DNA from: Nocardia jinanensis
GTDB lineage: Bacteria; Actinomycetota; Actinomycetes; Mycobacteriales; Mycobacteriaceae
Assembly: GCF_014645735.1 (NCBI RefSeq)
Contig: NZ_BMMH01000002.1
Location: 1-64,000, forward strand
DNA: 64,000 nucleotides
Reading direction: 5' to 3'
Under the pieces are notes generated by a model. It was not told the origin of the DNA, made no database searches, and saw nothing but the letters and a program-made list of their open reading frames with translations. Positions 1,754 through 13,248 of the stretch are shown in pieces; position 1 is the first letter of the stretch; every line of letters begins with the position of its first letter. The position numbers and the translations under genes are program-made.

Positions 1754-2809
1754 ATGAGGGGACTCATCGCCCGGCCTGGTGGGCGGCTGGCCTGGCAGTC
1801 GATACCGGCACCCGAACTGACCGGACCCGAGGCGGCCGTGGTGCGCCCCCTGGCGGTCGCCACCTGCGACCTCGATCGGGCGATGATGCTCGGCCGCACC
1901 CCTTTTCCGTTGCCGCTTCACCTGGGCCACGAGTGTGTGGCGGAGGTGACGGAGGTGGGCGAGGCGGTGACCTCTGTGCGTGTAGGGGATCGCGTTGTCG
2001 TACCTTTCCAGATCAGTTGCGGCCGGTGCCCGGCATGCCGGACCGGTTATACCGGTAGCTGCCGGACGGTCCCGCCGACAGCAATGTACGGCTTCGGTCT
2101 GGGCGGCGGCCTGTGGGGAGGAGCGCTGGGCGACTTACTCGCCGTCCCCTACGCCGACGCCATGCTGGTTCCGCTACCCCCCGGTGTGGACCCGGCCTCC
2201 GCGGCCGGCGTCGGCGACAACATCTGCGACGCCTACCGGCAGATCGCCCCCCACCTGCCCCGCCTGCTGGCTGCAGACCCCGCAACCGAAGTCCTCATCG
2301 TCGGCCGCCTCGACGACCACAACCCGCTCACCTCCAGCACCCCCCTCTACGCCGCACAGATCGCCCGCGCACTCGGCGCCCGCAACGTCAGCGTCGTCGA
2401 CGGCCGCGCAGCGGTCCGCAAACGCGCAACCCTTCTCGACATCCAACCGCTGGAACCGCGACGGCACCGCTCCTGGCCCACCGCCTCACTGACCGTGGAC
2501 AGCACCGGCACCCCACAGGGCCTGCGCCGCGTCCTGGCCCACACCGCCCCGGACGGGACCTGTACCTGCGTGTGGTCGCTGCACCGCCGCGCGGGCATCC
2601 CCCTGGCCGCGAGCTATGTCCGCAACGTCACCCTGCACATCGGACGCAGCCACGTCCGTACCGTCATGCCCGAGGTCCTCGACCTCATGGCAACCGGCCG
2701 CATTCAGCCCGAACTCGTCACCACCCTCACCACCACCTTCGACCGCGCACCCCGGGCGCTGGCCGAGCACTGCCATGACGACGCGATCAAAACCGTCCTG
2801 ACCAACTGA
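1754..2809 (+). CDS. zinc-dependent alcohol dehydrogenase (MDR family)
   Basis: About 351 residues from the ATG at 1754, where the family-like MRGLIARPGG begins. The GroES-like half has catalytic-zinc residues (TCDLD, LGHE) and the complete structural zinc knuckle CGRCPACRTGYTGSC. It is therefore a medium-chain dehydrogenase of the zinc alcohol dehydrogenase type, presumably oxidising an alcohol with NAD(P). The place of the nucleotide-binding GxGxxG motif is taken by VLIVGRLDDHNP, so cofactor binding is unusual or lost. No Shine-Dalgarno stands out at this start, and an upstream start at 1550 or 1472 cannot be excluded. It stands alone, convergent with the next operon. Substrate unknown. Confidence 0.72.
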   Translation: MRGLIARPGGRLAWQSIPAPELTGPEAAVVRPLAVATCDLDRAMMLGRTPFPLPLHLGHECVAEVTEVGEAVTSVRVGDRVVVPFQISCGRCPACRTGYTGSCRTVPPTAMYGFGLGGGLWGGALGDLLAVPYADAMLVPLPPGVDPASAAGVGDNICDAYRQIAPHLPRLLAADPATEVLIVGRLDDHNPLTSSTPLYAAQIARALGARNVSVVDGRAAVRKRATLLDIQPLEPRRHRSWPTASLTVDSTGTPQGLRRVLAHTAPDGTCTCVWSLHRRAGIPLAASYVRNVTLHIGRSHVRTVMPEVLDLMATGRIQPELVTTLTTTFDRAPRALAEHCHDDAIKTVLTN

Positions 2810-3056
2810 ACACCCGAGTCCAGTGGAACGCCGGCCCGCGGAGAGCAGGCCCCAATGCGGGCTCACCCCTTAATGAGCGGAACGCGCCCCCTCTAGCCAG
2901 GCCGCGGCCTTCGTCTCCCCTGATCACCTGTCCGTAAACCGATCGGTTGTTGCACACTGCCCCTCGGTGGGCTCAGCGCCCTGGTCGGTCGGCGCGGGGC
3001 GCTGTTCAAGAATCGTGTCGCCGGTCGGCAGCCCCCGAGAGGTGGCCATAGACAAA

Positions 3057-3087
3057 GGTCTGCCCCGCCATATAGGCGAGGCAGACC
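3057..3087. terminator. hairpin terminator between convergent genes
   Basis: GGTCTGCC..GCC and GGC..GGCAGACC pair around an ATATA loop, giving 8+3 bp with a small internal loop. It lies in the 347-bp gap (2810-3156) between the dehydrogenase and the convergent 3157-3982 operon. No other feature was seen in that gap. Confidence 0.55.
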
Positions 3088-3156
3088 GGGTCGGGGCTTG
3101 CCTGATGTAAGCACAGGCTGGGCAGCTTTTGCCGCGGCGGAAGCCGTCAGCTGCGC

Positions 3157-3603
3157 TTATCTGCTTTCGTACTGGTCGACGAGGTGGTGGTAGAAGCTGT
3201 TCTCCGGGTCTTCCAGCGAGATCGGGCGCAGGCCGACGATGACCTTTCGGTTGGCAGCTGCCGAGAATCCGTTCCTGGAGAGGCCGAGATCCTCAACGAT
3301 CGCCTTCGTGAGGTCGTCCAGTTCTTCGTCGGTCACGTAGACAGCGAGGCGGCATTCGACCGGGACGTCTTGCTGGTTGTATGCCTCTCCCCACGCACGC
3401 TGAGCGAACTCGTTGAGAGCAGTGACCTGACCGAACGCGGTGAAACACGGGATGCGGTTCGCTCCGTGGACGCGCTGGGCGCTCTCCTCGAGGAGCAACG
3501 CCACTGGGTGGATGCCCTCGCCGTCGAGCGCGCCCGGCCCCGTGGCCTCGGGCGGACCGAGCTCCACCGAGAGCTCCCACACTTGACGTTCGTCATCGTC
3601 CAC
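3157..3603 (-). CDS. hypothetical acidic protein
   Basis: 148 residues, unrecognised. ATG at 3603 has an AGGAAGG sequence about 10 nt upstream. The sequence is acidic (MDDDERQVWELSVELG, YVTDEELDDLTKAIVEDLG) with no signal peptide or membrane segment, so it is probably cytoplasmic. It begins 16 bp after the stop of the secreted-protein gene upstream and is probably co-transcribed with it. Composition and good third-position GC support it over the overlapping plus-strand frame. Whether it relates functionally to its secreted neighbour cannot be told from sequence. Confidence 0.6.
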   Translation of the reverse strand: MDDDERQVWELSVELGPPEATGPGALDGEGIHPVALLLEESAQRVHGANRIPCFTAFGQVTALNEFAQRAWGEAYNQQDVPVECRLAVYVTDEELDDLTKAIVEDLGLSRNGFSAAANRKVIVGLRPISLEDPENSFYHHLVDQYESR

Positions 3604-3619
3604 TCGGGACCTTCCTGTT

Positions 3620-3982
3620 CTATCGTTTCCATGCTTTTTCTTTGCGGCAGTGCTTCACCTTGCGGCCCTGGGGCGCGTCCGCTTGCGCCTGGTTCCAGGC
3701 GTCTTTCTCGGCCGCAGCCTCATTCTTCCCCTTACCCGTGAACTTCTTCGGTCCGGTGGCATTTGTCCCATCGAGATCCGTGAAGTAGCAGGACAACGTG
3801 ACGTAATGCGTGGCAGCGAACTCGAACTGCCACTCTGGCTGCACGACAGTGGCAGACTCCCCGGCGTTGACCGGTGCGTGGGCTGCGGCCTGCCCGACAC
3901 CGATCGATGCGGTCCCGGCAGCGCAGGCTGCCGCCACAGCTATCGCAGTAAGCATCCGGCGACCGGCCATAGTGAACTGCAT
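3620..3982 (-). CDS. small secreted protein
   Basis: 120 residues from ATG 3982, chosen because GGGAGG lies 6 nt upstream; a longer frame reaches 4051. The N-terminus is a clear Sec signal peptide: MAGRR followed by a hydrophobic AIAVAAACAAG core and AAAHA, a plausible signal peptidase I site. The mature part has two cysteines (one in LSCYF, one in VKHCRK) that could form a disulphide, and a very lysine-rich C-terminal half (KKFTGKGKNE, KVKHCRKEKAWKR). No family was recognised. It heads a two-gene operon with the acidic 148-residue protein. A secreted basic protein next to an acidic cytoplasmic one is compatible with a toxin/immunity pair, but nothing proves it. Confidence 0.65.
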   Translation of the reverse strand: MQFTMAGRRMLTAIAVAAACAAGTASIGVGQAAAHAPVNAGESATVVQPEWQFEFAATHYVTLSCYFTDLDGTNATGPKKFTGKGKNEAAAEKDAWNQAQADAPQGRKVKHCRKEKAWKR

Positions 3983-4191: not shown

Positions 4192-4749
4192 TCACCGCAA
4201 TGTGGGAGCACGCAGGTAGTTGTAGACGGTCTGGCGCGTGACCCCGAACTCGGCTGCCAGCACCGACTTCGATTCGCCGGCCTCGGCCCGGGCCCGCAAC
4301 TGGCCGATCTGGTCGGCAGTGAGCGCCGGCGCGCGACCGGTGTAGGCGCCGCGGGCCTTGGCCGCGGCGATGCCTTCACGTTGGCGTTCCAGGATCAGGG
4401 CGCGTTCGAATTCGGCGAAGGCGCCCATGATCGACAGCAGCAGGTTGGCCATGGGGGAGTCTTCGCCGGTGAAGGTCAGCGATTCCTTGACGAACACCAC
4501 CTTCACGCCCTTGCTGGTCAGGGTGCGGACGAGCTGGCGGAGGTCGTCGAGGTTGCGGGCGAGCCGGTCCATGGAGTGCACGATCACCTCGTCACCTTCT
4601 CGGACGAACGCGAGCAGCTCGTCGAGCTTGGGCCGGCTAGCCTCCTTCCTGGAGGCCTTGTCGGTGAACGTCTTCTCGACCTCGACGCAGTCGAGCTGCC
4701 GCACGGTGTTCTGATCGAGTGTGCTCACCCGGATGTAGCCGACCCGCAT
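4192..4749 (-). CDS. serine recombinase (resolvase/invertase, Tn3 TnpR type)
   Basis: 185 residues, the normal length of small serine resolvases. The N-terminus MRVGYIRVSTLDQN carries the catalytic Ser9. HSMDRLARNLDDL and ERALILERQREGI are the usual catalytic-domain and E-helix segments. The C-terminal ~45 residues form the helix-turn-helix (SVLAAEFGVTRQTVYNYL). Such enzymes resolve transposon cointegrates or invert DNA at res/gix-like sites. The gene lies 5 kb from the truncated Tn3 transposase but outside that element's terminal repeats, so a common origin is only possible. The upstream intergenic DNA holds a candidate recombination site. Confidence 0.9.
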   Translation of the reverse strand: MRVGYIRVSTLDQNTVRQLDCVEVEKTFTDKASRKEASRPKLDELLAFVREGDEVIVHSMDRLARNLDDLRQLVRTLTSKGVKVVFVKESLTFTGEDSPMANLLLSIMGAFAEFERALILERQREGIAAAKARGAYTGRAPALTADQIGQLRARAEAGESKSVLAAEFGVTRQTVYNYLRAPTLR

Positions 4750-4814: not shown

Positions 4815-5022
4815 TTAACGCCGGAGGGGATTCTATCTTTACGCATTTCGTCTCGGTGGCTGTTGTCTATTTAGGCTCTACTCCAGATAGACGCACGCTT
4901 TGGGAAGGGTCATAGGGGAGCGACATTGGTTTTCGAGATCGTGGAACCAGCGGCCCGGCCGGTGCGTCTAGCTCTTCGTGGGTCGGGTATGAGTGGTCGG
5001 GAGTGTGATCGAGAGGATTGGG

Positions 5023-5361
5023 ATGGCAGAGGGGCAGCAGCCGGTCACTGTGGACCCGGCCGCGATGGCTGATGCTGCGACGTTTTTCGGGTCGATGGCG
5101 ACGACGTTGATCAATGCGGTCAAGGACGTGGACGCCAACATGGAGTTCCTGCAGGGTACGTGGCAGTCCGCGGCGGCGACCGCGTATGCCGGCGGTTGGG
5201 AGGAGGCTCGCACCGGTGCGTTGGAGGTGCTGGAGTCGCTGGGGGATATGGCCGAGTTGATGGGGGTGCAGGGGATGGACTTTCAGGGCACCGATTCGGA
5301 TCTGTCCGGCGATCTGGCCGACCATGCTGCTGCCGCCGCGCCGAGTTCGCTGCGGCTGTAG
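5023..5361 (+). CDS. WXG100-family (ESAT-6-like) protein
   Basis: 112 residues from ATG 5023 (GAGAGG about 6 nt upstream; an earlier in-frame start at 4993 lacks this). Two helices flank a W47-Q-S turn (EFLQGTWQSAAATAYAGGW), a mild variant of Trp-Xaa-Gly. This is the hairpin fold of type VII secretion substrates. It is followed 15 bp later by a canonical WXG100 protein and then by an ADP-ribosyltransferase toxin-like protein. The two small proteins could form the heterodimer that targets the large effector to an ESX apparatus. No secretion machinery genes (eccC, eccB) are in the window. Confidence 0.85.
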   Translation: MAEGQQPVTVDPAAMADAATFFGSMATTLINAVKDVDANMEFLQGTWQSAAATAYAGGWEEARTGALEVLESLGDMAELMGVQGMDFQGTDSDLSGDLADHAAAAAPSSLRL

Positions 5362-5376
5362 ACGGGCGGAGACGTT

Positions 5377-5703
5377 ATGGGTGGGCCGCTGGGCGGCGGA
5401 TACCGGGTGGACCTGACCGAGTTGGAAGCGGCAGGGGATCGGCTCGGCAACCTGATCGGGTTCTTGGAGGACTGTCTCGATCAGATCGAGAAGCGGGTGG
5501 GTGTGCTGCGGCAGGGCTGGTCCGGTGAGGCGGCAGGCGCCTACGACGACGCGCATGCCGACTGGCTTACCGGCGTGCAGGATATGAAGGACGGTCTGTT
5601 GCGGATGCAGGAAGCTGCTCGGACCGCGCACGCGAATTACACCAGCGCCGCGCAGACCAATGTGGCGATGCTGGGCCGCGGGCCGGTCCCCGGCGTGCAG
5701 TGA
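5377..5703 (+). CDS. WXG100-family protein with canonical WSG turn
   Basis: 108 residues. Two amphipathic helices are joined by the W48-S-G50 turn (VLRQGWSGEAAGAYDDAH), the type VII secretion signature. Its stop codon overlaps the GTG start of the downstream effector (GTGA overlap at 5700-5703), so translation is probably coupled. It likely dimerises with the preceding WXG100 protein or acts as secretion partner of the effector. ESX partner function is family knowledge; pairing here is inference from gene order. Confidence 0.88.
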   Translation: MGGPLGGGYRVDLTELEAAGDRLGNLIGFLEDCLDQIEKRVGVLRQGWSGEAAGAYDDAHADWLTGVQDMKDGLLRMQEAARTAHANYTSAAQTNVAMLGRGPVPGVQ

Positions 5704-7187
5704 CCGATACCGCCACGATTGATGTAGACCCGCAGGTCTACTACGACGCCACCACGGCGCTGACGAATGCTTCGATGGCGTTCGCTCGTGCGGTCGATGA
5801 TCGGTGGTCGGCGTTGGCCGACTGCGAGCAGATGGCCGGCTCCTACGACGATGCCAAGACCTGGGCTACCGACTACGACGCCCGCGCGAACGAGGCCATC
5901 ACCACGTCGAGGATGCTGTGGGAGGCGGCCTGGTCGTATTGCTCGCTGCTGGGCGAGATGGGCTACAACCACGCGATGGCCGACTGGTCGTCGGTGATCG
6001 GCAACACCGCCCCGCAACCGGCCTACCCACCACTGCCGAACTGGCTCAGCATCACTTGCCGTCCGGACCTCCCGTCGGCTGGCGGTCCGGGTAACGGCCT
6101 GGTGGCCGAGGGTCTTTCTGGTGCGGTCGATCTGCTGGACGAGATCGGGGTGGTGATCCCCGACGGCGACACCGGCAAGCTGGGCAACGCGGCCCGGATC
6201 TGGTCGGAGATGACCGCCGATCAGGCGGTGGCGAATTTCGCGGCCGAGTTGAACCGCATTGCCGACATGTTCGCCACCGTGACCACACCGGAAGCGGTAT
6301 TCATCGACGAAGACCTGCGCCGGATGGCCACCGCCGCCACCGAGGTCGCCGGGCAGCTCGGCGAAATCGGTACAGCGGTCAACGAACACCTCGTATCGCT
6401 GCAAGAGCTGCGTAACCAGCTCAAAGACCAGCTCATCGAGCTCGGTAAGGAGATCGGCAAAGAGGTCCTGATCGGTATCGGCCTGTCGGTGATCACCGCC
6501 GGTTTCGGTGCGGCGCTGGCCACCGCCCGCGGCGCCGCGGCGGTCAAGAAGTTCGCCGGGCCGATCCGCGCGCTGGTGGTCGCGTTCAAATCCGCGAAGA
6601 TCACCAAAGGAGTCAAGACCACCCATACGCCCGCCACACACCAGCCCACCTTGGCCGAGCTGGCGGCGCTGAAGCCGACGAAGGCCCCGACGAAGCCGAC
6701 CACGGCGGCCCCCAAGAAAGCTCTCACCGAAGACGACCACATCGCGATCAACTCATACACGGGTATGGGATACCGAAACCTCAACCAGGCACTACGCAAC
6801 CCGTTGACCGATCCTGACGCCTACACCCAGCAGCGTATCGACGCCTTGAACCAGGCTCTCGGCAAGCTGCCGGACCACCAAGGCCCGGTGGTCCGGCACA
6901 CGAACCTGCCCGAACAGGAACTGGCCAAATACCAGCCTGGTCAAACCGTCCTCGAAACCGGGTTCACCTCGACCACCAAGAACCCCAACGGGGCAAGTGC
7001 CCTGTTCGAAGGCGGCAGTAACGTGGAGTTTCAGATCATCTCCAAAACGGGCAAAGACGTCTCCGGACTGTCCAAGTCCCCCGAGGAGATGGAAGTGCTG
7101 TTCCGGTCCGGAACACCGTTCGCGTGCACACAGCGATGGACAGACCCAGCGACCGGCCGGACCTTCATCCGGCTCGTCGAGCAATAG
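5700..7187 (+). CDS. WXG-type effector with C-terminal ADP-ribosyltransferase domain
   Basis: 495 residues. Residues 1-260 are helical with Trp-rich heptads, resembling the N-terminal targeting part of ESX polymorphic toxins. Residues 255-275 are hydrophobic (LIGIGLSVITAGFGAALA), possibly membrane-inserting. A Lys/Pro/Thr-rich linker covers ~300-340. Residues 341-495 form an ART domain: ALTEDDHIAINSYTGMGYRNLN opening in two parts, R399 in VVRHT, the STS-like strand GFTSTT (421-426), and E463-M-E465, an ExE pair. R-S-E with ExE is typical of arginine-specific mono-ADP-ribosyltransferases of the VIP2/C3-like group. It would modify a host or rival protein using NAD. The small gene just downstream may encode its immunity protein. 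Confidence 0.82.
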   Translation: MTDTATIDVDPQVYYDATTALTNASMAFARAVDDRWSALADCEQMAGSYDDAKTWATDYDARANEAITTSRMLWEAAWSYCSLLGEMGYNHAMADWSSVIGNTAPQPAYPPLPNWLSITCRPDLPSAGGPGNGLVAEGLSGAVDLLDEIGVVIPDGDTGKLGNAARIWSEMTADQAVANFAAELNRIADMFATVTTPEAVFIDEDLRRMATAATEVAGQLGEIGTAVNEHLVSLQELRNQLKDQLIELGKEIGKEVLIGIGLSVITAGFGAALATARGAAAVKKFAGPIRALVVAFKSAKITKGVKTTHTPATHQPTLAELAALKPTKAPTKPTTAAPKKALTEDDHIAINSYTGMGYRNLNQALRNPLTDPDAYTQQRIDALNQALGKLPDHQGPVVRHTNLPEQELAKYQPGQTVLETGFTSTTKNPNGASALFEGGSNVEFQIISKTGKDVSGLSKSPEEMEVLFRSGTPFACTQRWTDPATGRTFIRLVEQ

Positions 7188-9974: not shown

Positions 9975-10014
9975 GGGGTCCCGGTAGTAATCGCGCGAAA
10001 AACAACACATATGG
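9975..10014 (+). repeat. left terminal inverted repeat of Tn3-family element
   Basis: Starts GGGGTCCCGGTAGTAATCGC and continues through GCGAAAAAC to ATATGG. Aligned with the right end read on the minus strand it matches at about 36 of 40 positions with two single-base offsets. Confidence 0.85.
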
Positions 10015-10101
10015 CTGGACCAGCAGGAAGAACCTCGGCGGGCGGGCAGTGCTTGGAGATCATCCGAGGAATGCACCAAGGCCGACTTTTCGCCTTCGTG
10101 C

Positions 10102-10984: not shown

Positions 10985-11316
10985 GCGCCGTCCGGTTCGC
11001 GCGTTCCAAGGTTGCACGACGAAGCCCGGCCCCTGTGTCCGAGATCAGTTTTGCCGCACGCGGGGCTCGGTGAGGCCATTGCGGGCCTGAACTGATCCGG
11101 AGCGCCGCACTGCCACAGTGACTTACCTCACCGTCAGTGTCGGCGTACCGGCCGCGCGAAGTGCACGCGGAAATACGTGTACAACACTGCACAACAGTGT
11201 GCAGCAGTCAGGCTCCGCTCCGAAGGGGGCCTAGCGCATCACACACCGCGTAACACAAGTTGTGGTGCGACTCGGTGATTCGACCCCCAAGGTCTAGTAT
11301 TGCTGCCAGCCAACAA
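10985..11316. other. intergenic region with a short dyad
   Basis: No gene was found. ACACTG-CACAA-CAGTGT at 11184-11200 is a 6-bp perfect dyad in a run of CA/GT-rich sequence, a possible operator upstream of the structured leader. Promoters for the small cargo genes probably lie here. Confidence 0.35.
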
Positions 11317-11438
11317 CGTTCGAAACGAACGAGCCTCACACCGGGGCTCCGGCGTGAGGCACGTTGATGTTGCACTTTTAGCGGGGTGCTCCGTCAACGT
11401 ACCGCAGATGTGCTGTGCCCACAGGAGGTGGGAACAGC
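11317..11438 (+). promoter_or_regulatory. leader of four back-to-back hairpins (candidate structured RNA)
   Basis: Four stem-loops follow one another almost without spacing. A: CGTTCG-AAA-CGAACG (11317-11331). B: GCCTCAC/GTGAGGC (11333-11360) with an inner CCGG/CCGG stem. C: ACGTTGA/TCAACGT (11361-11400) with an inner GCAC/GTGC stem. D: GCTGT-CCCAC/GTGGG-ACAGC (11412-11438) with a 1x1 internal loop and an AGGAG loop that copies the ribosome-binding site sequence. The 33-codon gene starts 34 nt later behind AAAGGAGGT. This looks like a regulatory leader or small RNA; no known riboswitch class was recognised. Confidence 0.5.
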
Positions 11439-11472
11439 GCCGGTCGCGGACTTGGCGGAAAGGAGGTAACCC

Positions 11473-11574
11473 ATGGGTACTCGTCGTATCACGATCCGTC
11501 CGGGTCAGAAGAAGACGATCACGCTGCCCGGGCCGGTGCGCAAGATCACCATCCGCCCGGTAAAGCCGCGGTAG
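11473..11574 (+). CDS. 33-residue basic peptide with threefold repeat
   Basis: ATG 11473 lies 5 nt after AAAGGAGGT, one of the strongest ribosome-binding sites in the window. The product is very basic and consists of three similar ~9-residue units: RRITIRPGQ, KKTITLPGP and VRKITIRPV, then KPR. No family is known to me. It is too short for most gene finders. The preceding multi-hairpin leader and following YjzC-like gene suggest one small transcription unit ending at the terminator at 11928. Alternating hydrophobic/basic residues suggest beta strands or nucleic-acid or membrane binding, which is only inference. Confidence 0.6.
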   Translation: MGTRRITIRPGQKKTITLPGPVRKITIRPVKPR

Positions 11575-11690
11575 TCCCCTGAACTCGCGTGTGCCGCCCA
11601 GACCTTCGGGTTCCTGGGCGGCCACCGAGCCATCTCCTCACTGCTCACCGCATGTTCGGTGTGCAGCCTCACCATGCAAGGAGGGCCATC

Positions 11691-11885
11691 GTGCCTGCCA
11701 AGAAACCATTGAAGCCCGGAACCCCCGCCCCGAACTCGGGGCAGTACGAAGAGGTCGGTCCGCGCGGCGGCCGCACCGGCAAAGAAGCCACCGGAGTGAA
11801 GGGCAAGACCCTGCCGCCGACGTCGAAGCCGGGCCAAGGCTGGGACCTGGTAAACCCGACGAAGAACAAGTCCGGGAAGGGATAG
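11691..11885 (+). CDS. YjzC-like small protein
   Basis: 64 residues from GTG 11691, which has AAGGAGGG 5 nt upstream; the frame is open to 11589 without such a site. The sequence LKPGTPAPNSGQYEEVGPRG and a later Lys-rich SKPGQGWDLVNPTKN resemble the YjzC family (short, basic, KPG-x-APxSGxY opening) known from Bacillus with unknown function. It follows the 33-residue peptide gene and is 42 bp upstream of a strong terminator. Its location inside a transposon is unusual for this family. Confidence 0.6.
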   Translation: MPAKKPLKPGTPAPNSGQYEEVGPRGGRTGKEATGVKGKTLPPTSKPGQGWDLVNPTKNKSGKG

Positions 11886-11927
11886 CCCCGGCTACCGGAT
11901 CGGCTACACCGACCAACTGAACAAAAC

Positions 11928-11964
11928 GAAGGTGGCGCGGACCATGTTGGTCCGCGCCACCTTC
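11928..11964. terminator. strong terminator hairpin (17-bp stem)
   Basis: GAAGGTGGCGCGGACCA and its exact complement flank a 3-nt loop (TGT at 11945-11947). It lies between the YjzC-like gene and the convergent truncated tnpA, so can stop transcription from both sides. Confidence 0.85.
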
Positions 11965-12000
11965 TCGTCGCTGGTCTGCCGTGCCAGGAGTTCGGCACTC

Positions 12001-13101
12001 CTACTCCGCTGATGCGGCGTCCCACCCGATCGCATCGCCGCGGATCAGCGCGCCGATCTCCTCATCGGCCACCGCTGGGTCGGTGACGATGGCCAGGAGG
12101 TCGTCGAGGAGGGCCTGGCGGTCTTCTCCAAATTTGCCGCGTTCGGCCAGTTCCTGCTGCATCCGGCGTTCGGCGGCACCGAATTTCGCCGAGATCGCCT
12201 GATCGAACAACGCGACCACTTCATCGAGGACATCGGTGCCGGACTGCGCCAACACGGTGAGCAGGATCGGATACCGCCGCTGTGGGTCTCGGCGTTCGAG
12301 CGCCTGCGGGGTCAACCGGCGGCCCATCGTGGCCAGGAACCGGCGCCGCTCGGGGGGCAGCACCGACATATCCAGGCGATCCGCGCCCAGCCCGCGCAGG
12401 AACGCCAGCTTGTCGACCTCGGCGCGTACTGCGGACGCCGAGGCCTCCACCGGACCGGTCGACAGCCACCGCAACCGTGAAACCCCCAGCGAGGCATCGA
12501 CGGGCAGCAGCGCGTCCAATTCCGCGCAGCGGGCCGGGGTGAACTCGTGGGCCAGGCGGTCGTAGGTTTCTCGCTGAGCCTGCTCGCGGGCGTGGGCGAT
12601 GCGTTCGACCATGCTCACCGGGCCGGGGCGGATCACCCGCGCCGAGATCAGGTACTCACACCCCAACCGGAACAGCAGGTTCGGGGAGTCGTGTTCCATC
12701 GCTCGTGCGAGCAGGAACTCGTCGAGCTCCTCGAGTTCGAGCGCACCGGCCGCCCGCCAGCCCAAATACTGCGCGACCAGGCGCAAATGATCGGTACGGG
12801 TCTGGGCGCGGCGGCCGTAGGAACCGATCTCGGTACCGTCGACCCGCAGCTGCTCGGCCAACCTGGCTACCGCGACCGGCGGGGCGGTCACCACGCGATC
12901 GGGCACGAACCCCAACCACGGCAACGTGCACAACGCGATCGCGATACCGAGCCGATCAGCCGGACCCCGCCCACGCCCCGGATCCACGAACGCCAGATCC
13001 GCCGGCGAAAGCGTGAAGAACCGGAACAACTCCTCACGACCGATCCCCGGGAACTCCCGCAGCCGCGCCAACTCCCCATCCGCGAACACCCGCGTCGCCA
13101 C
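12001..13101 (-). pseudogene. Tn3-family transposase TnpA, N-terminal fragment
   Basis: 366 residues from GTG 13101 (GGGAGG 8 nt upstream). The sequence ATRVFADGELARLREFPGIG, LFRFFTLSPADLAFV and the following DNA-binding region match the DUF4158 N-terminus of Tn3 transposases (normally ~950-1000 residues). The frame stops after GALIRGDAIGWDA, well before the DDE catalytic domain, so the protein cannot catalyse transposition. It could still bind the terminal repeats and act as a repressor of related elements. The gene starts ~110 bp inside the right terminal repeat, and a terminator follows its stop. Confidence 0.9.
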
Positions 13102-13208
13102 GACACCGACCTCCCACACCAACCAACAGCGTTGGGAGCCAAGCCAACCAGCAACCCGCCTCCACCGCAGACCAAACCGGGCCTCACCGGCGGTCAGCTG
13201 CGATTACG

Positions 13209-13248
13209 CCATATCCGTTGGTTTTTCGGCGGTTACTACCGGAACCCC
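13209..13248 (-). repeat. right terminal inverted repeat of Tn3-family element
   Basis: Read on the minus strand from 13248 it starts GGGGTTCCGGTAGTAACCGC, continues CGAAAAACC and ends GGATATGG. It sits ~110 bp upstream of the truncated transposase start. Confidence 0.85.

Follow-up and report, generated by a model that had tools for sequence, protein, structure and literature searches.

Organization of the cassette

The window, a 64,000-nucleotide stretch of Nocardia jinanensis DNA, contains a compact cassette in which a putative promoter and a hairpin-rich leader precede a gene for a short basic repeat peptide and a YjzC-like gene. The cassette and the features that surround it are as follows.

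9975–10015, plus strand: left inverted repeat of a Tn3-like remnant (repeat comparison)
11253–11268, plus strand: NrdR-box-like palindrome 1, ACACAAGTTGTGGTGC (11/16 consensus positions)
11285–11300, plus strand: NrdR-box-like palindrome 2, CCCCAAGGTCTAGTAT, overlapping the predicted -10 (10/16 consensus positions)
11301–11472, plus strand: conserved 5′ leader (models R1 and R2, ten copies), with transcript start predicted near 11307
11309–11313, plus strand: 5′ arm of stem P0 (GCCAA), predicted partner 11452–11456 (arm-swap permutations, pair probability in the window fold)
11317–11331, plus strand: hairpin H1 (fold z-score, arm swap, double-sided changes)
11333–11360, plus strand: hairpin H2 (fold z-score, double-sided changes)
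11362–11399, plus strand: hairpin H3, conserved core TGCACTT...GTGC...CAACGTACC (fold, ten-copy comparison, arm swap, double-sided changes)
11401–11444, plus strand: hairpin H4 (fold z-score, arm swap, double-sided changes)
11452–11456, plus strand: 3′ arm of P0 (TTGGC), immediately 5′ of the Shine–Dalgarno (SD) sequence (ten-copy comparison, arm swap, double-sided changes)
11460–11466, plus strand: ribosome-binding site AAGGAGG, a strong SD (sequence)
11473–11574, plus strand: 33-codon basic repeat peptide (ORF translation, conservation)
11594–11621, plus strand: intergenic hairpin between the peptide gene and the YjzC-like gene (by eye)
11691–11885, plus strand: YjzC-like gene, 64 residues, GTG start (PF14168, 26.3 and 27 bits)
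11928–11964, no strand assigned: 17-bp hairpin at the cassette end, terminator-like on the minus strand (sequence)
12001–13122, minus strand: N-terminal third of a Tn3 transposase, part of the setting and outside the cassette (profile match)
13208–13248, minus strand: right inverted repeat of the Tn3-like remnant (repeat comparison)

A sequence-only reading of this DNA had described four consecutive hairpins, then a strong ribosome-binding site and a 33-codon ORF made of three units of about nine residues. The ribosome-binding site and the ORF, which translates as MGTRRITIRPGQKKTITLPGPVRKITIRPVKPR, are present in the sequence as described, and the hairpins were borne out at 11317–11444: the predicted RNA fold of 11317–11472 has a free energy of -77.7 kcal/mol (z-score -4.49), equalled by none of 200 shuffled sequences. 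Two parts go beyond that description, namely the promoter at 11253–11300 and P0, a fifth stem that closes H1–H4 and joins the transcript start to the bases just 5′ of the ribosome-binding site. The pair probability of P0 in the window fold is modest (0.42–0.60), and the analysis turned up no alternative fold, ligand or protein partner for the leader.

Conservation and covariation of the leader

Searched at the DNA level, 13 of 150 Nocardia genomes had a match at E <= 0.001. In one of these (L007) the match was to the peptide gene alone, and in five others (L010–L014) it covered 30–55 bases lying, by eye, inside other coding stretches; the latter were rejected. A covariance model, R1, was built from seven aligned leaders. 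Over 148 Nocardia genomes it returned ten at E <= 1e-9, comprising the seven used for model building and three new ones, and 35 at E <= 0.1. Over a 401-genome sample of the family, E <= 1e-9 was reached only in the N. jinanensis genome itself, with 29 genomes at E <= 0.1, and an order-wide search with model R2 under strict filters (n=219) likewise matched only this genome. Eight of the weaker R1 matches were read (L034–L038, L054–L056); they look like GC-rich hairpins of the terminator type and were set aside. A pattern search with the H3 core matched N. fusca, N. abscessus, N. alni and two further Nocardia species.

The sequence-only reading had proposed that covarying homologues be sought, and they were found. 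In the R2 alignment, from which the pair counts were taken after fitting to the model, 20 of the 41 pairs carry changes on both sides, compared with 8.4 (sd 1.8) in shuffles, none of 500 of which scored as high. Of 405 cells in the same alignment, 88.6% are paired; when the partners are shifted by 1–3 columns, the share falls to 26–42%. An arm-swap test on the R1 alignment gave permutations as good as the true pairing in 0 (H4), 32 (P0), 194 (H1) and 205 (H3) of 20,000 each; since the ten copies are related, the swap and shuffle results are not exact probabilities. Some pairs of P0, H1 and H4 are broken in some copies (77–83% of cells paired). The arms of P0 pair as TAGCCAAG with CTTGGCTA in L009, as AGCCAAT with ATTGGCT in L032 and as CCAGAT with ATCTGG in L033. 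In the last of these, compensatory changes replace both stems of H3 and leave the ACTT stretch unchanged. Across the ten copies the sequence itself of the H3 core and of the TACC after H3 is kept, beyond what pairing accounts for. In all ten the structure spans the interval from just 3′ of the -10 to the SD, whatever gene comes next. We conclude that the hairpins are arms of a conserved 5′ leader that, judged from sequence comparison, likely folds as a closed multi-helix RNA.

One element of the sequence-only reading did not survive comparison. The AGGAG loop of H4 had been suggested to act as a decoy for the ribosome-binding site; the loop differs in relatives, reading ACAG in L006 and CGAA in L009, and the idea was rejected because the loop is not conserved.

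Riboswitches and protein-binding leaders are kinds of structured 5′ leader, and the present one shares with them a 5′ UTR of several helices that is conserved, covaries and extends to the SD. It differs from them in matching no Rfam family: no match to the window leader was found at gathering score or at E <= 10, nor to five related loci at E <= 0.1, in agreement with the earlier statement that no known riboswitch or leader class was recognizable. Outside Nocardia, R2 gave weak in-position matches only, at four repeat-peptide loci (L121, E 8.7e-5; L158, 2.4e-4; L122, 1.3e-3; L087, 7.9e-3), with E-values computed over just those four, which had been preselected as earlier R2 matches. No full R2 match was obtained on the leaders of DUF2188 genes in other genera (L016, L017, L018, L088, L104, L106) or on that of a metallo-β-lactamase (MBL)-fold gene (L120), the L088 leader matching in part (E 0.42). 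These seven leaders share the promoter and, by eye, a core reading GAACTT...GTTC...CAACGTA; RNAalifold on them gave a weak signal, with 9 of 37 pairs changed on both sides and a covariation term of +0.48.

Genes downstream of the leader

The leader is not peptide-specific: other genes come next in five of the ten loci. It is followed by the peptide and YjzC-like genes in the window, L003, L004 and L005, by YjzC alone in L006, by DUF2188 and then the peptide in L008, by DUF2188 in L032, by a 44-residue basic protein in L033, and by proteins of 106 (L009) and 263 residues (L031), neither of which matched Pfam or NCBIfam. The sequence-only reading had proposed a search for a similar peptide behind a similar leader in relatives; a conserved repeat peptide is present at half of the ten loci, namely the window, L003, L004, L005 and L008. 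Several leader products besides the peptide are likewise short and basic. Neither the peptide, YjzC nor the 263-residue protein had a PADLOC match.

Absence of selection on the 33-codon ORF had been named as an observation that would speak against the reading. Between the window and N. fusca, the ORF carries 0 nonsynonymous changes over 55.7 sites and 3 synonymous changes over 22.3 sites; pairwise among ten core sequences, two of which are identical in protein, mean pS is 0.47 and mean pN 0.18. The ORF thus looks to be under selection, as far as substitution patterns can tell. A structure model of the peptide has a mean pLDDT of 79.4 and a pTM of 0.33, with no secondary structure assigned.

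The second gene of the cassette belongs to the YjzC-like type (PF14168), clearing the curated Pfam cut-off narrowly (26.3 and 27 versus 25 bits), while the gene downstream of the leader in L032 and L008 belongs to the DUF2188 family (PF09954). Hairpins of different sequence occupy the place equivalent to 11594–11621 in L003, L004 and L005. A YjzC-like open frame was also seen in L080 (genome G016) with no evident leader or promoter of the window type; it is possibly a decayed cassette.

The promoter and its relation to nrdH

NrdR boxes have been described as following the consensus acaCwAtATaTwGtg, typically in two copies (PMC4009431), and as 16-bp elements 15–16 bp apart that are bound with ATP and dATP (PMC12051234). 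Upstream of the leader lie two 16-bp palindromes separated by 16 bp, the second overlapping the predicted -10 (TAGTAT, 11295–11300). They fit the consensus partly, at 11 and 10 of 16 positions. As a pair they score 21 of 32, with a runner-up of 17 among the 127,904 window positions scanned (both strands of 64 kb, 16-bp spacer). The window has two palindromic 16-bp boxes near a predicted promoter with a spacer in the 15–16 bp range, placed before genes for a peptide and YjzC and not before a ribonucleotide reductase gene. Box-pair scores were 20–25 in 22 non-nrdH promoters and 23 in three nrdH promoters, including that of the N. jinanensis genome; in these sets the 16-bp spacer follows from a frame fixed by anchoring on the -10. 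Locus L087 lacks a good box pair, its best scoring 15. Gap-free alignment on the -10 was possible for 21 promoters, ten of the leader family and eleven from the peptide, DUF2188 and plasmid searches.

Within the N. jinanensis genome, a search with a consensus pattern allowing up to 3 mismatches found the nrdH promoter alone; the window copy is therefore a diverged one. In genus g23, a pattern derived from the consensus of the aligned promoters matched 25 of 28 genomes at up to 2 mismatches. At the 29 places read there, the next gene was NrdH in 25, DUF2188 in two, a 49-residue repeat peptide in one and an unidentified gene in one, with NrdH identified by NCBIfam for L134, L163 and L188 and by likeness for the others. 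Among 59 Nocardia genomes, 57 have nrdH. The window promoter and the NrdR-regulated nrdH promoter of Nocardia and g23 have in common two 16-bp NrdR-box-like palindromes, a 16-bp spacer and the position of box 2 over the -10, but the window-type promoter precedes unrelated small genes, and its folded leader is not that of nrdH: R2 was run on 22 loci, including 20 nrdH loci, and returned three matches at E <= 10, namely L158, a site in L149 away from the promoter, and the 5′ region of the own-genome nrdH (L188) at E 7.3, which is chance level. On the basis of the box layout, the window promoter is likely tied to NrdR control.

The Nocardia nrdH genes (L162–L191, the own-genome copy being L188) have an extended 5′ region in which some stretches, CTGGAAG...CTTCCAGGGGTTTGCGCA...GCACTGCATACGGATC, look conserved between species by eye; this region may itself be a structured leader.

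A DNA-damage promoter motif of the PafBC type, TGTC(GG/AG/AC)-N10-TAnnnT (RecA-NDp; PMC8151990; for PafBC and related regulators, PMC6789036, PMC8223512, PMC11804915, PMC10693628 and PMC12340889), occurs in 15 of the 21 aligned promoters. It is absent from the window copy, which reads TTCGAC-N10-TAGTAT at this position, and from five others (L003, L033, L017, L088 and L120); the N. fusca copy is among those without it. Upstream of nrdH, TGTC[AG]-N11-TAnnnT was present in all 30 Nocardia loci read, the own genome included. A loose PafBC-like match lies within 480 bases at 14 of 30 DUF2188 loci, and eight DUF2188 genes with short upstream regions carry such a loose motif (L091, L093, L103, L109, L110, L111, L114, L119). 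At L121, L122 and L158 the same promoter type precedes threonine- and arginine-rich repeat peptides of 47–49 residues, like the window peptide in style and unlike it in sequence.

Genomic setting and probable mobility

The sequence-only reading had placed the cassette on a Tn3-family element. Inverted repeats of 41 nt (80% complementary) do enclose the cassette together with a TnpA remnant, which is incomplete, matching only positions 3–334 of a 954-position model; no target duplication was seen, the five bases outside the two repeats being different. The remnant is only the local host: when the window's first 25 kb were compared by blastn with nine neighbourhoods of 8–16 kb (E <= 1e-8), homology with N. 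fusca was restricted to the cassette alone (11247–12022, beginning shortly upstream of the boxes and extending beyond the terminator hairpin) and homology with N. abscessus to 11253–11867, while the window's flanking genes matched none of the nine. The description of a compact cassette ended by a 17-bp terminator stood as regards compactness and the presence of the hairpin; the T-run lies on its minus-strand side.

The neighbourhood of L124 contains a resolvase, and those of L129 and L132 encode TraB-like proteins scoring under the curated cut-offs, with about 2 kb of genes of this type in common. The peptide was found in four plasmid records, from Rhodococcus, and the window leader in none. 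On the Rhodococcus plasmid L120 the same promoter type precedes an MBL-fold gene matching the PADLOC candidate PDC-M48B; at 2500–3729 of this locus, the promoter and a second kind of leader stand directly before the gene, with a ThiF gene nearby. Loci on Rhodococcus plasmids with DUF2188 and peptide genes have as neighbours a CBASS-type cyclase and effector (L088) or an Abi-like gene (L089). These observations suggest that the cassette is likely portable or mobile.

Phage records contained no match for the peptide or the window leader. A DUF2188 query hit three of them, two Mycobacterium abscessus prophages and one Streptococcus phage; in the two that were read, no good box pair (15 and 14) or PafBC motif lies upstream. 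In one prophage (prophiT48-1, Mycobacterium abscessus, L194) a gene annotated as an antitoxin, next to a BrnT-like toxin, contains a DUF2188-like stretch. Among viral contigs, the promoter pattern was found in one and the H3 pattern in none.

Elsewhere in the window, a serine resolvase gene lies on the minus strand at 4192–4749, outside the Tn3-like inverted repeats, and 4993–7187 holds two WXG100 genes and, after them, a gene for a 495-residue protein with a domain of the ADP-ribosyltransferase type, together likely a type VII secretion substrate set.

Alternative explanations

The simplest alternative is that the leader is a passive 5′ stabilizer or insulator, its hairpins protecting the mRNA and shielding it against transcripts arriving from upstream, without any ligand or switching. 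The hairpins are very stable and stacked almost without spacers, no second fold is apparent, and the genes downstream vary, all of which would fit; the preservation of the H3 core and TACC as sequence in ten copies exceeds what a passive role needs, and we regard this alternative as unlikely, if still deserving of some weight. That the leader acts also or only as a small RNA in trans, or as a binding partner of the basic peptide, might be suggested by the short, basic nature of the peptide and several other leader-borne products. Nevertheless, in ten copies the SD and start codon directly follow the leader, without an intervening terminator, and half of the loci lack the peptide, so that we hold either role to be quite improbable.

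The hairpins might instead work as DNA, forming a recombination or transfer site that mobilizes the cassette, which is indeed found with unrelated flanks and adjoined by recombinase or transfer-like genes. Yet the homology is bounded by the boxes and the region past the terminator, not by the hairpins, and G-U pairs outnumber A-C pairs by 13 to 3, a count biased by having been made in arms hand-picked to pair; this we consider very improbable. As for the promoter, the palindromes could belong to another repressor and not be controlled by NrdR, their NrdR-box likeness reflecting shared descent from, or chance likeness to, an nrdH promoter. The fit to the published consensus is partial, but two boxes with a 16-bp spacer stand in the same layout before nrdH of the same genome, which makes such an origin improbable.

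A model for cassette control

The reading that we favour, and think probable, is that of a compact cassette in which a pair of NrdR-box-like palindromes, laid out as before the genome's own nrdH, is combined with a covarying leader likely tuning the translation or stability of the peptide and YjzC-like genes. According to this model, NrdR would repress the cassette when dATP is plentiful; a drop in dATP, as in replication stress, phage infection or DNA damage, would cause NrdR to leave the boxes and permit transcription from near 11307. Many relatives could receive additional activation from PafBC through TGTCR-N10-TAnnnT, the motif that is missing in the window copy. The leader would then fold as P0 and H1–H4 with the ribosome-binding site just outside P0, and a protein or ligand that decides whether P0 closes would likely make contact at the conserved H3 core, through which translation or stability would be controlled. 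The basic peptide may bind nucleic acid, and the same leader would serve different small, often basic, genes in different genomes.

More tentatively, and as a possibility that we rate below even chances, mobile elements of Nocardia and Rhodococcus may carry a portable copy of the reductase switch of their host, an NrdR-box promoter joined to a new class of ligand- or protein-sensing leader. Depletion of the dNTP pool by an invader or by replication stress would then induce small proteins that bind nucleic acid or act in defence. A limited literature search found no description of a leader of this kind or of cassettes under NrdR, and no paper on YjzC or DUF2188 behind such a leader. NrdR is described as the repressor of ribonucleotide reductase genes. 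If its box pair, spaced as in reductase promoters, indeed stands ahead of small genes of other kinds on likely mobile cassettes, such elements would read the nucleotide pool of their host. The leader would constitute a further RNA family, one whose conserved core can be tested, and it gives a handle on short basic peptides and on the YjzC and DUF2188 proteins.
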